A DNA stretch of 64,000 bases from Nocardioides glacieisoli (lineage in GTDB: Bacteria; Actinomycetota; Actinomycetes; Propionibacteriales; Nocardioidaceae): contig NZ_SDWS01000002.1 of assembly GCF_004137245.1 (NCBI RefSeq), positions 310,001 through 374,000 on the forward strand, written 5' to 3'. The translations under genes and the position numbers were made by a program. The first letter of the stretch is position 1; every line of letters begins with the position of its first letter. Of this stretch, positions 21,005-48,469 are shown one piece after another. The notes beneath the pieces are model-generated. The model saw nothing but the letters and a program-made list of their open reading frames with translations, had not been told where the DNA came from and did no database searches.

Positions 21005-22516
21005 ATGAGCACCCTTTTCGACAGCGCCGCCGACGCCCCCGCGCGCACCTACGAGGTCAAGACCCACGGGTGCCAGATGAACGTCCACGACTCCGAGCGC
21101 CTCGCCGGGCTGCTGGAGGACGCCGGCTACGTCCGGGCGGACTCGGGGCAGGCCGACGTCGTCGTGCTCAACACCTGCGCTGTCCGGGAGAACGCGGACA
21201 ACAAGCTCTACGGCAACCTGGGCCAGCTCGCCTCGGTGAAGGCCGCGACGCCCGGCATGCAGATCGCCGTCGGCGGCTGCCTGGCGCAGAAGGACCGCGA
21301 GACGATCACGTCGCGCGCGCCGTGGGTCGACGTCGTCTTCGGCACCCACAACATCGGCTCGCTGCCGGTGCTGCTCGAGCGGGCGCGGTTCGCCGAGGAG
21401 GCGCAGGTCGAGATCCTCGAGTCCCTGTCGGTCTTCCCCTCGACGCTGCCGACGCGGCGCGAGTCGGCGTACGCCGCCTGGGTGTCGGTGTCGGTCGGGT
21501 GCAACAACACCTGCACGTTCTGCATCGTCCCGGCGCTGCGCGGCAAGGAGAAGGACCGCCGGCCGGGCGAGATCCTTGCCGAGATCGAGGCGCTCGTGGC
21601 CGAGGGAGTCACGGAAATCACCCTGCTGGGGCAGAACGTGAATGCGTACGGCGTCGAGTTCGGCGACCGGCAGGCCTTCTCCAAGCTGCTGCGCGCGTGC
21701 GGCGGCGTCGAGGGTCTCGAGCGGGTCCGCTTCACCTCACCCCACCCGGCCGAGTTCACCGACGACGTCATCGAGGCGATGGCGGAGACGCCCAACGTCA
21801 TGCCGTCGCTCCACATGCCGCTGCAGTCCGGCTCCGACAAGGTCCTGCGAGACATGCGCCGGTCCTACCGCCAGTCGAAGTACCTCGGGATCATCGACCG
21901 CGTGCGGGCCGCGATCCCGGACGCCGCGATCACGACCGACATCATCGTCGGCTTCCCCGGTGAGACCGAGGAGGACTTCCAAGCCACGCTCGACGTCGTA
22001 CGAGCCGCGCGCTTCTCGTCGGCCTTCACCTTCCAGTACTCCAAGCGCCCCGGCACGCCCGCCGCGACGCTCGACGACCAGGTCCCGCCCGACGTGGTCA
22101 AGGACCGCTACCTCCGCCTCGCCGCGGTGGTGGACGAGGTCGCGTGGACAGAAGGCAAGGCGGTCGTCGGCCGCACCGTCGAGCTGATGGTGTCCGAGGG
22201 CGAGGGCCGCAAGGACATCGAGACCAAGCGACTCTCCGGCCGCGCTCCCGACAACCGCCTCGTCCACTTCGCCGCGGACTTCTCCTCGGTGCCCGAGTCC
22301 TCCGTGCGCCCGGGCGACATGGTGACGGTCTCGGTGACGTACGCCGCCCCCCACCACCTGGTCGCCGACGGCCCGATCCACTCCGTCCGCCGCACCCGTG
22401 CGGGGGACGCGTGGGAGCGGCGTACGTCGTCTTCCTCCGCGCCGACCGGCGTGGGGCTCGGGATGCCGACCGTCGGGGTGCCCGCGCCCCTGCCGCCGGC
22501 TGCCGCCTGCGGCTGA
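21005..22516 (+). CDS. miaB: tRNA-2-methylthio-N6-dimethylallyladenosine synthase MiaB
   Basis: 503 residues. It is a radical-SAM methylthiotransferase acting on A37 of tRNA. The UPF0004 domain cysteines are in [21 protein letters not shown] and VGGCLAQKD. The radical SAM cluster is in [15 protein letters not shown]-terminal TRAM domain contains [11 protein letters not shown]. The MiaA prenyltransferase that makes its substrate is encoded about 2.4 kb downstream. The usual neighbours recA and recX are not in this window. Confidence 0.96.
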
Positions 22517-22521
22517 CCCCC

Positions 22522-22602
22522 TGTCGGAGTCCCCGCCTGAGCGGGGACTCATGCACGATCGTGGAGCTTTCGAGCCGGCTCCCGGCTCAGGACTTCCACG
22601 AT
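22522..22602. repeat. Left copy of long inverted repeat around the DUF559 gene
   Basis: An 81-nt element made of two hairpins. The first is GAGTCCCCGC-CTGA-GCGGGGACTC. The second is a longer stem starting ATCGTGGA and closing TCCACGAT. It matches the reverse complement of 23650-23730 at about 69 of 81 positions by eye. Confidence 0.85.
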
Positions 22603-22666
22603 CCCTTCGTCCACAGATCGGTCCAGACGGGTCGCGCGCCACGTCGCGACGTCCGATCGTGGGGGA

Positions 22667-23644
22667 GTGGACCCCTTGGCCGACCTGCTCGCCTCGCAGG
22701 ACGGCGTCGTCTCGCGGAGCCAAGCCATCGGCGTCGGTCTTCAGCCCCACGACGTACGCCGTCTCGTGCGCCGCCGTGACCTGACGCCGCTGTTCCCCGG
22801 TGTGTTCATCGACCACACGGGTGTCCCGACGTGGGTGCAGCGGGCTTGGGCGGGGGTCCTCGCGTGCGCGGCCCCGGGTGGAGCCTCCGGCAGCGACCTG
22901 GGTGCGGCCCTCGCCGGAGCCTCCGCGATGCGCGCTGCGGACGGACCGGGGCGAGCGGGGTCCGAGGACGGACCGATCACGGTCGCTGTCCCACGCACGC
23001 GCCGCGTGGTCGCACCCCGGGGCGTCCGGGTCGTGAGGACCTTCGGCATGGAGGACCGGGTCCAGTGGAACCTCGGGCCGCCGCGCATGCGCTACGACGA
23101 AGCCGCCCTGGATGTCGCACTGCAGGAGACGGGCGACTTCGCCGCCATCGGCGCTGTCTCGCGAGCCGTGCAGAGCAGGCACACCACGGCACTCCGCATG
23201 GTCGCCGCGCTGGATGCTCGCACGAGAGCTCCGCGGCGGGACTTCCTCGCCGGCGTCCTGAGAGACGTAGCAGCGGGGAGCTGCTCGGTCCTCGAGCACG
23301 GGTTCCTGACGTTGGTCGAGCGACCGCACGGCCTGCCGCCCGCCCAGCGCCAGAAGCGTGTCGGCACCGCCAGCGGCATCGTCTACCGCGACGCGGCCTA
23401 CGGAGAAAGGCTGATCGAGCTCGACGGTCGGTTGTGGCACGACACGGCGGAGCAGCGCGACAAGGACTTCGAACGGGACCTCGATGCTGCAGTCGCCGGG
23501 CAGGGCACCGTACGACTCACGTGGGGGCAGGTCTACGAACGGCCGTGCTCGACGGCAGCGAAGCTCTCCCGTCTTCTCGAGGTGGACGGTTGGCCGGCGG
23601 CTCGCCCGTGTGGTTCCGGATGCGCCGTCGCCGACGCGGCCTGA
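22667..23644 (+). CDS. AbiEi-like N-domain plus DUF559 nuclease-like protein
   Basis: 325 residues from GTG 22667 with GGGGGAG upstream. The N-terminal winged-helix part (about 1-50: VVSRSQAIGVGLQPHDVRRL, then LTPLFPGVF) resembles the AbiEi antitoxin-type domain. The C-terminal part (about 240-300: ERLIELDGRLWHD, QRDKDFERDLDA, TVRLTWGQV) has the Vsr-like PD-(D/E)XK pattern of DUF559, with Asp and Glu/Asp catalytic candidates. Its function is unknown; related actinobacterial genes are annotated as type IV antitoxin-like. It is enclosed by two inverted copies of an 81-nt element, suggesting it moved as a unit. Confidence 0.75.
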   Translation: MDPLADLLASQDGVVSRSQAIGVGLQPHDVRRLVRRRDLTPLFPGVFIDHTGVPTWVQRAWAGVLACAAPGGASGSDLGAALAGASAMRAADGPGRAGSEDGPITVAVPRTRRVVAPRGVRVVRTFGMEDRVQWNLGPPRMRYDEAALDVALQETGDFAAIGAVSRAVQSRHTTALRMVAALDARTRAPRRDFLAGVLRDVAAGSCSVLEHGFLTLVERPHGLPPAQRQKRVGTASGIVYRDAAYGERLIELDGRLWHDTAEQRDKDFERDLDAAVAGQGTVRLTWGQVYERPCSTAAKLSRLLEVDGWPAARPCGSGCAVADAA

Positions 23645-23649
23645 CAGCC

Positions 23650-23730
23650 ATTGTGGAAGATCCGAGCCGGCATCCGGCTCGGAACTTCCACGATCCTGCA
23701 TGAGTCCCCGCACAGGCGGGGAGTCCGACA
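23650..23730. repeat. Right copy of long inverted repeat around the DUF559 gene
   Basis: In reverse complement it begins TGTCGGACTCCCCGCC and ends TCCACAAT, pairing with the left copy. It also forms two internal hairpins, so it may terminate transcription from both sides. Confidence 0.85.
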
Positions 23731-23739
23731 ACGAGAAGG

Positions 23740-24033
23740 TCAGGCCGGAGGCTCCGGCGACCCGTCCTCGGCCTCCTGGCCGGCCTCCGGCGACTCGGCC
23801 GTCGTGTCGGCCTCCGCATCGTCCGCCTCGCCCTCGGGGGCCTGCGACTTGTCGTCGGGCTCCGAGATCTCGTCGGGCAGCACGTCGTCGACCGCGGGGT
23901 TGTCCTCCGGGGTCAGGTCGCGGCCCAGGCCGTTGTCCTCCGGGTCGTCGGCGATCGCGTCCACGCCGCCCGGGTAGAGCTCCGGGTCCTCGGTGACCGG
24001 GGTCGGCATCGGGCTCAGCTCTTCGTTGCTCAT
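23740..24033 (-). CDS. Small acidic, probably disordered protein
   Basis: 97 residues from ATG 24033 (MSNEELSPMPTPV), chosen for GGGAGG 7 nt upstream. The composition is dominated by Asp, Glu, Pro and Ala, with no predicted hydrophobic core, membrane span or cysteine. No function can be assigned. It follows a Nudix gene on the same strand, with about 90 bp between. Similar acidic proteins are common in Nocardioidaceae, but I recognise no named family. Confidence 0.6.
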   Translation of the reverse strand: MSNEELSPMPTPVTEDPELYPGGVDAIADDPEDNGLGRDLTPEDNPAVDDVLPDEISEPDDKSQAPEGEADDAEADTTAESPEAGQEAEDGSPEPPA

Positions 24034-24119
24034 CGGGTTCCCTCCCACAGGTTGGTTCGTTCGATCGTGCCGCGCGGGTCATGAACTGACCACCCCCGAG
24101 GGGCGGGGCCAGCCCGGAC

Positions 24120-46866: not shown

Positions 46867-46882
46867 GCACATTTGCACGGGT

Positions 46883-46991
46883 GGTCGAGTAGCCCGCGAA
46901 GAACGCACCCATCGGCGGTCGAGTAGCCGCGAGGTGCGCTTCCCGTCGGTGGTCGAGTAGCCCGCGAGGAACGAGCGGGCGTATCGAGACC
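46883..46991. repeat. Dispersed repeat R1, three units at 34-bp spacing
   Basis: GGTCGAGTAG begins units at 46883, 46917 and 46951. The first two are half-length and the third ends with GTATCGAGACC. The regular 34-bp period suggests tandem amplification of the left half. This occupies most of the gap between the LysM gene and the lipoprotein gene. Confidence 0.75.
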
Positions 46992-47099
46992 CCTCAGCCT
47001 CGGCGCCAGTTCTCCACAGGCTTTGCCGAGGGGCTGTTTCTCGGGCAGCTCCCATGGGTAGTTTCAGCGGTGCAGACGTTGTCTCGGGAAGGCAGTTTC

Positions 47100-48426: not shown

Positions 48427-48469
48427 GTGCGGTGTCCGTGGTGCAGCTGACGCACCGTGGACGCCGCAC
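48427..48469. terminator. Bidirectional terminator between convergent genes
   Basis: Arms of 18 nt (48427-48444 and 48452-48469) match at 15 positions by Watson-Crick pairing, with the rest mostly G-U. It lies between the PKD gene and the convergent serine hydrolase, whose stop it touches. Confidence 0.6.

Follow-up and report, generated by a model that had tools for sequence, protein, structure and literature searches.

A single nuclease-like gene in the soil actinobacterium Nocardioides glacieisoli lies between two long inverted elements, and the locus raises the question of what ties gene and elements to each other. The window analysed here is the whole stretch of 64,000 nucleotides taken from contig NZ_SDWS01000002.1 (positions 310,001 to 374,000). 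An earlier note on this DNA had read the layout either as a non-autonomous mobile cassette or as a selfish gene with its own terminator/target pair. REP-like palindromes are widespread, and HUH (Y1) transposases are, to our knowledge, the enzymes that spread them.

Results and Discussion

Structure of the inverted pair

The two 81-nt elements at 22522-22602 and 23650-23730 match at 69 of 81 positions (85%) with 1047 nt between the arms, exactly where the earlier note had placed them, and the runner-up inverted repeat in the 4 kb around the pair is 27 nt long. Folding bears out the two hairpins proposed for each element (DNA folding z-scores of -7.0 and -6.4, with no shuffle as good). Only one gene (22667-23644, forward strand) and no transposase is found between the elements, and the neighbours are miaB (21005-22516) and a gene for a 102-aa acidic protein (23740-24048, minus strand), again as had been described. 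An Rfam scan of the window gave no matches.

Each element is a composite of an inner 47-nt palindrome and an outer 24-nt hairpin. In the upstream element, both on the forward strand, the outer hairpin (GAGTCCCCGC..GCGGGGACTC) occupies 22527-22550 and the inner palindrome (GATCGTGGA..TCCACGATC, referred to as type R1) occupies 22557-22603. In the downstream element, on the minus strand, the inner palindrome is also of type R1 and lies at 23649-23695, 4 nt past the stop codon, followed by the outer hairpin at 23702-23725. The outer hairpin accompanies either type of cassette at the miaB site of other genomes and elsewhere occurs alone or beside solo palindromes; it therefore looks like a separate dispersed family that combines with the inner palindrome into composites and is tied to the site or genome, not to the gene version. 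Partial solo copies of it occur at four loci of the same genome (L003, L005, L008, L009). At these loci, around position 1501, a second composite repeat is formed by GGGAGGGCGAGTC, a ACTTGGAGGCC..CTCCAAGTGTC hairpin and the GAGTCCCCGC hairpin in a row. A GGAGTCNCCGGATATCCGGGG hairpin plus inner palindrome also recurs as a solo composite, like the 81-nt element, at three loci (L257, L258, L264) of genomes G135 and G136. The window holds one more dispersed repeat, GGTGGTCGAGTAGCC..GAGCGGGCGTATCGAGACC at 46880-46993, which has at least two copies and no relation to the palindromes.

The encoded protein

For the 325-aa product, an AbiEi-like N-domain and a Vsr/DUF559-like nuclease domain had been proposed. 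The first of these is upheld. The N-terminus resembles Pfam AbiEi_4 (E 1.6e-4, under the curated cut-off), and the only significant Foldseek matches of the AlphaFold model (pLDDT 82) are Rv2827c (1zel) and AbiEi (6y8q), at E 7e-5 to 1e-4; the full-length search retrieved the AbiEi part alone, with the AbiEi-like fold in the first ~200 residues. This part is like the antitoxins of AbiE type IV toxin-antitoxin systems, which bind inverted repeats in their own promoters (PMC7319586). Unlike AbiE systems, no DUF1814 nucleotidyltransferase toxin gene adjoins the gene (the acidic neighbour has no Pfam match), a nuclease domain is fused to the protein, and the palindromes are dispersed.

The nuclease assignment is weak by sequence, the match to MTES_1575 having an E of 0.06 at full length and 0.015 for the C-terminus alone; eight of 12 relatives also match it weakly, with a best E of 0.0033, below the cut-off. 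No match was found in NCBIfam, and a PDB sequence search with the family profile gave nothing relevant. E210, D242, E251, D253 and H258 are invariant in 12 sequences and correspond to the E-D-ExD-H catalytic residues of PD-(D/E)XK enzymes, which implies catalysis. Like the Vsr/DUF559/MTES_1575 nucleases and the Vsr-fold homing endonuclease I-Bth0305I, the C-terminal part has these residues and a predicted alpha-beta-beta-beta-alpha-beta-alpha topology, and its model gives weak Foldseek matches to PD-(D/E)XK nucleases (E of at least 0.1), I-Bth0305I (3r3p) among them. Unlike those nucleases, the gene lies in neither an intron nor an intein and is bracketed by palindromes, and its Pfam match is below cut-off. 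From sequence and predicted structure we read the protein as a DNA-binding nuclease, the nuclease part being less certain than the binding part.

Homologs and their flanking palindromes

Homologs were found in Nocardioides, one Mycobacterium and three other families. They often carry a 40-55-nt palindrome upstream and a second that mostly starts about -4 to +10 nt from the stop codon. The arms of these palindromes differ among loci and agree inside a locus: the best upstream-downstream alignment averages 30 when both flanks come from one locus and 12 when flanks are swapped, and in 50 of 95 homologs no other pairing scores above the own one. The flanking palindromes are thus locus-specific and match each other. 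Matched pairs align better as inverted repeats in 23 cases and as direct repeats in 22.

When homologs were thinned to <70% identity, with thresholds that 5% of control windows pass, a strong ungapped palindrome was present on at least one flank in 70% and on both flanks in 35%. Neither flank had one in 21 of 69 (~30%), some of which carry matched bulged copies, so the bracketed layout is a family trait with losses, and a minority of distant homologs are without recognisable palindromes. The earlier note had named DUF559 genes lacking the elements as evidence against its idea. Such genes do occur among the diverged homologs, and the link between gene and palindrome, looser across the family, is strong in the window's clade. 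Three paralogs in the same genome (L013 at C22:170641, L014 at C30:296890 and L015 at C30:92303) have palindromes of other arm types, L015 with perfect CGTCATGAGAATC palindromes on both sides. No relative was found among the plasmids searched, and phages and viral contigs gave one weak match each, so nothing points to a phage or plasmid as carrier.

In 85 of 95 homologs the sense strand carries the motif TCCACAG, mostly at 56-59 nt 5′ of the start codon and immediately inside the upstream palindrome, against a background of 0.006 per 200 nt. The copy in the window lies at 22610-22616 on the forward strand, 57 nt 5′ of the start codon. Its context there is the usual one, TTNTCCACA, which is similar to TTGTCCACA, the DnaA box of M. 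tuberculosis and S. coelicolor (PMC4285127). The box is probably part of the proposed selfish unit, perhaps with a role in regulation or processing. A TTCTCCACAG box also occurs at 47010-47019, upstream of a lipoprotein gene that starts at ~47100, and at five loci of other genomes (L224-L226, L219, L228) a palindrome adjoins the box ahead of that same gene, as in the DUF559 cassettes.

The fixed positions of TCCACAG and palindrome upstream of the gene would suit a reading in which the palindromes are binding sites of an AbiEi-like regulator, within a regulon or the nucleoid. The flanking copies would then be autoregulatory and the solo copies operators, with sites changing along with the gene version and no palindrome mobility. 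Structural likeness to AbiEi and Rv2827c, antitoxins that autoregulate through inverted repeats, also speaks for it. However, the sites are 43-47 nt long with long compensated stems, far beyond the needs of an operator, and the invariant E-D-ExD-H residues imply a catalytic role.

Cassette versions at the miaB site

The orthologous site between miaB and the acidic gene was compared in 30 Nocardioides genomes. Several cassette versions are found there: forward cassettes with GATCGTGGA arms (R1), reverse cassettes with GTGCGGT arms (R2), whose protein is ~53% identical to that of the window, and GAGTGTGG cassettes. The palindrome arms travel with the gene version, even at one chromosomal site, and a site-bound repeat independent of the gene was rejected on this comparison. 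The earlier note had suggested looking for empty sites in relatives, and empty or solo sites exist: one (L104) has a composite copy and no gene, and another (L125) has neither element nor gene.

The presence of both orientations at this site, the near-equal numbers of direct and inverted pairs and the existence of empty and solo sites would all fit a non-autonomous cassette that is moved by a transposase or recombinase encoded elsewhere and carries the nuclease gene as cargo. Against this, Y1 transposases are absent from the clade genomes, and the palindrome type tracks the variety of the nuclease gene, which alone is shared by every bracketed locus. We consider the cargo reading quite unlikely, and the mobile cassette of the earlier note loses ground accordingly. 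The other half of its proposal, a selfish gene with its own target pair, agrees well with arms that travel with the gene version, the same layout in relatives and the empty and solo sites.

Solo palindromes across Nocardioides

Outside the cassettes, palindromes of types R1 and R2 occur as solo copies, typically at about 2-14 places per genome, not hundreds. In the window's own genome a strict R1 arm pattern recovered the upstream cassette copy and solos at C30:249509 and C33:152557, and a slightly looser pattern added C5:44763 and C11:640521; the reversed-pattern control for the strict pattern had no matches. In a survey of 216 Nocardioides genomes, the strict pattern was present in 15 of the 19 genomes of the window's clade (those with the gene at ≥64% identity) vs 21 of the 197 others, and here too the reversed pattern was found in none. 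Covariance models of the 47-nt palindrome (R1) and the GTGCGGT type (R2) were also searched, the latter because the pattern TGCGGTC..GACCGCA proved too loose, its reversed control being about as frequent in many genomes. Model counts cover both strands, include the cassette's own two palindromes (four strand matches) and refer to the best ~28 scored candidates per genome. The median number of R1 strand matches was 20 in clade genomes and 0 in the others, with at least 12 in 16/19 vs 7/197 (Fisher 3.5e-16, MWU 4e-14). Each of the 10 genomes with a verified GTGCGGT cassette had at least eight R2 matches. Both models were trained partly on surveyed genomes; for R1, the strict pattern, which needed no training, leads to the same result.

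The stems are kept through compensatory changes (covariation 0.292 vs 0.147 and 0.441 vs 0.225 in shuffles), and R1 solos are more alike inside a genome than between genomes (similarity 0.72 vs 0.57, p 0.0002). Occupancy varies, as at the VOC/MOSC site, where the palindrome is present in five of 30 genomes and absent from 25. Comparison of the near-identical pair G135/G136 yielded no insertion junction, all five compared solo sites being common to both, and no target-site duplication or clean new insertion was seen between these very close strains. At one locus of this pair (L259) the palindrome is far better conserved than its flanks.

Many copies adjoin stop codons or sit between convergent genes. 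This placement, together with the finding of the outer hairpin alone, would agree with ordinary dispersed 3′-end hairpins, acting as terminators or mRNA stabilisers and homogenised by gene conversion, with the gene merely caught between two of them. We disfavour this as very improbable, since a T-tract was present at 0 of 224 palindrome ends and no terminator-like site was called, the arms match inside a locus and differ between loci, and the type follows the gene version independently of phylogeny. Canonical intrinsic terminators, in the sense of a GC hairpin with a T-tract, are rejected on the same evidence, and the terminator pair of the earlier note is unsupported in that sense. One solo between two divergent genes (L128) speaks for binding sites of a regulator, but the many sites at stop codons or in the gaps of convergent gene pairs speak against them, and the exchange of unrelated arms at ~10 places per genome through point mutation is implausible. 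On balance, the regulator reading is unlikely.

The earlier note would also have been weakened by elements that are common and solitary with no association to such genes. Solitary copies do exist, yet they are strongly associated with the gene. Its idea is thus partly supported, and the main point absent from it is this dispersed, gene-dependent population of solos.

Palindromes follow the resident gene

Mapped on a tree built from a single housekeeping-type gene of 30 genomes, cassette type changes nine times, vs a mean of 7.8 for shuffled labels. The swapping of cassette versions at the miaB site therefore shows no phylogenetic signal. The majority type of the palindromes nonetheless agrees with the cassette type in 23 of 27 genomes, with two ties and two against; G019 and G152 run against the rule, and G000 (the window's genome) and G156 carry both types. 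The pattern is clearest on neighbouring branches. G179, with an R2 gene, has 0/21 R1/R2 matches, vs 19/0 and 20/5 in G087 and G093, which have R1 genes; likewise G007 (R2 gene) has 2/10, vs 22/0 and 16/0 in G065 and G201 (R1 genes). Since types swap without phylogenetic signal, shared ancestry does not explain the match between palindromes and gene.

In G000 the counts are 18/16 while its neighbour G070 (R2 gene) has 2/29, which suggests a recent cassette swap in G000. The window itself contains an R2 solo (GTGCGGT..CGCCGCAC; 48427-48469, forward strand), read directly from the sequence and placed directly 3′ of the stop codon of a PKD-like gene. As the resident cassette is R1, it is a probable relic of an earlier gene version. 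This is a second orthologous solo site, between convergent genes, where in most genomes a palindrome takes up a large part of the gap between the genes. The variable inner stem at this site resembles that of the genome's own cassette (0.81) more than those of other cassettes of the same type (0.59; permutation p 0.0008). Both the type and the variable inner stem of solo palindromes therefore follow the resident gene. At the same convergent-gene site, four loci (L241, L247, L239, L245) carry a third type with TCGAAG..CTTCGA arms, as in cassettes L047/L048.

Comparison with REP/RAYT systems

In REPtrons (Nunvar 2010) a RAYT gene is bracketed by palindromes that also have dispersed copies, evolve with preservation of their stems and are linked to the gene version (PMC2817692). 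The system described here is alike in placing one nuclease-type gene between two palindromes (strongly in the window's clade, and with at least one in ~70% of thinned homologs), in the dispersal of the same palindromes as solos, here at about 2-14 places per genome, and in compensated stems and a palindrome type linked to the gene version. It differs in its enzyme, AbiEi-like plus PD-(D/E)XK in place of a Y1/HUH transposase; in its 43-55-nt palindromes at low copy number and without a GTAG/CGTC tag; in flanking pairs that are direct as often as inverted; and in its conserved TCCACAG box. Y1_Tnp (Pfam PF01797; IS200/RAYT) was found in 0 of 19 clade genomes, with positive controls, and a RAYT was rejected as the driver on this count; the nuclease gene has no match to the Y1 transposase profile. 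A GTAG or CGTC tag occurs at 11 of 224 palindrome ends and is absent from the R1 and R2 consensus. Because both the Y1/HUH transposase and the tag are absent, the palindrome-nuclease system is not a member of REP/RAYT, which is its closest analogue.

A probable selfish unit with its own palindromes

Taken together, we think it probable that the gene makes up a single selfish unit together with its two inner palindromes, similar in habit to REP/RAYT and driven by an unrelated enzyme. By likeness to the AbiEi-family antitoxins, the AbiEi-like part would bind the palindrome. The PD-(D/E)XK part may then nick or cut either this palindrome or a target, for example a competing palindrome at the end of a gene; through repair, the palindrome or even the entire cassette would be copied into the cut site. 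The solos would then be incomplete copies or remnants and, once the gene is replaced, the old palindromes would be lost or replaced as the new type accumulates. Cassette swapping at one site is compatible with the habit of homing endonucleases, which cleave alleles without the element and copy themselves in.

A broader proposal, which we hold as readily as we doubt it, is that this is a new class of actinobacterial selfish element. Its AbiEi-PD-(D/E)XK protein would recognise a lineage-specific long palindrome, cut competing palindromes or gene-end sites and convert them to its own type, so that replacement of the gene rewrites the scattered palindromes. Such an element would have arisen by fusion of a toxin-antitoxin-like regulator to a Vsr-like nuclease and would be the functional counterpart of REP/RAYT. 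Among open-access papers we found no publication linking DUF559/AbiEi genes to palindromes.

If true, a second and unrelated enzyme family would be tied to its own palindromes, and this lifestyle would have arisen at least twice. A large and mostly unnamed family of actinobacterial AbiEi/DUF559 proteins would gain a function as well. Moreover, with natural swaps of the gene version at one site and scattered palindromes that follow them, the spread and persistence of extragenic palindromes would become directly testable, both by comparing genomes and in laboratory strains.
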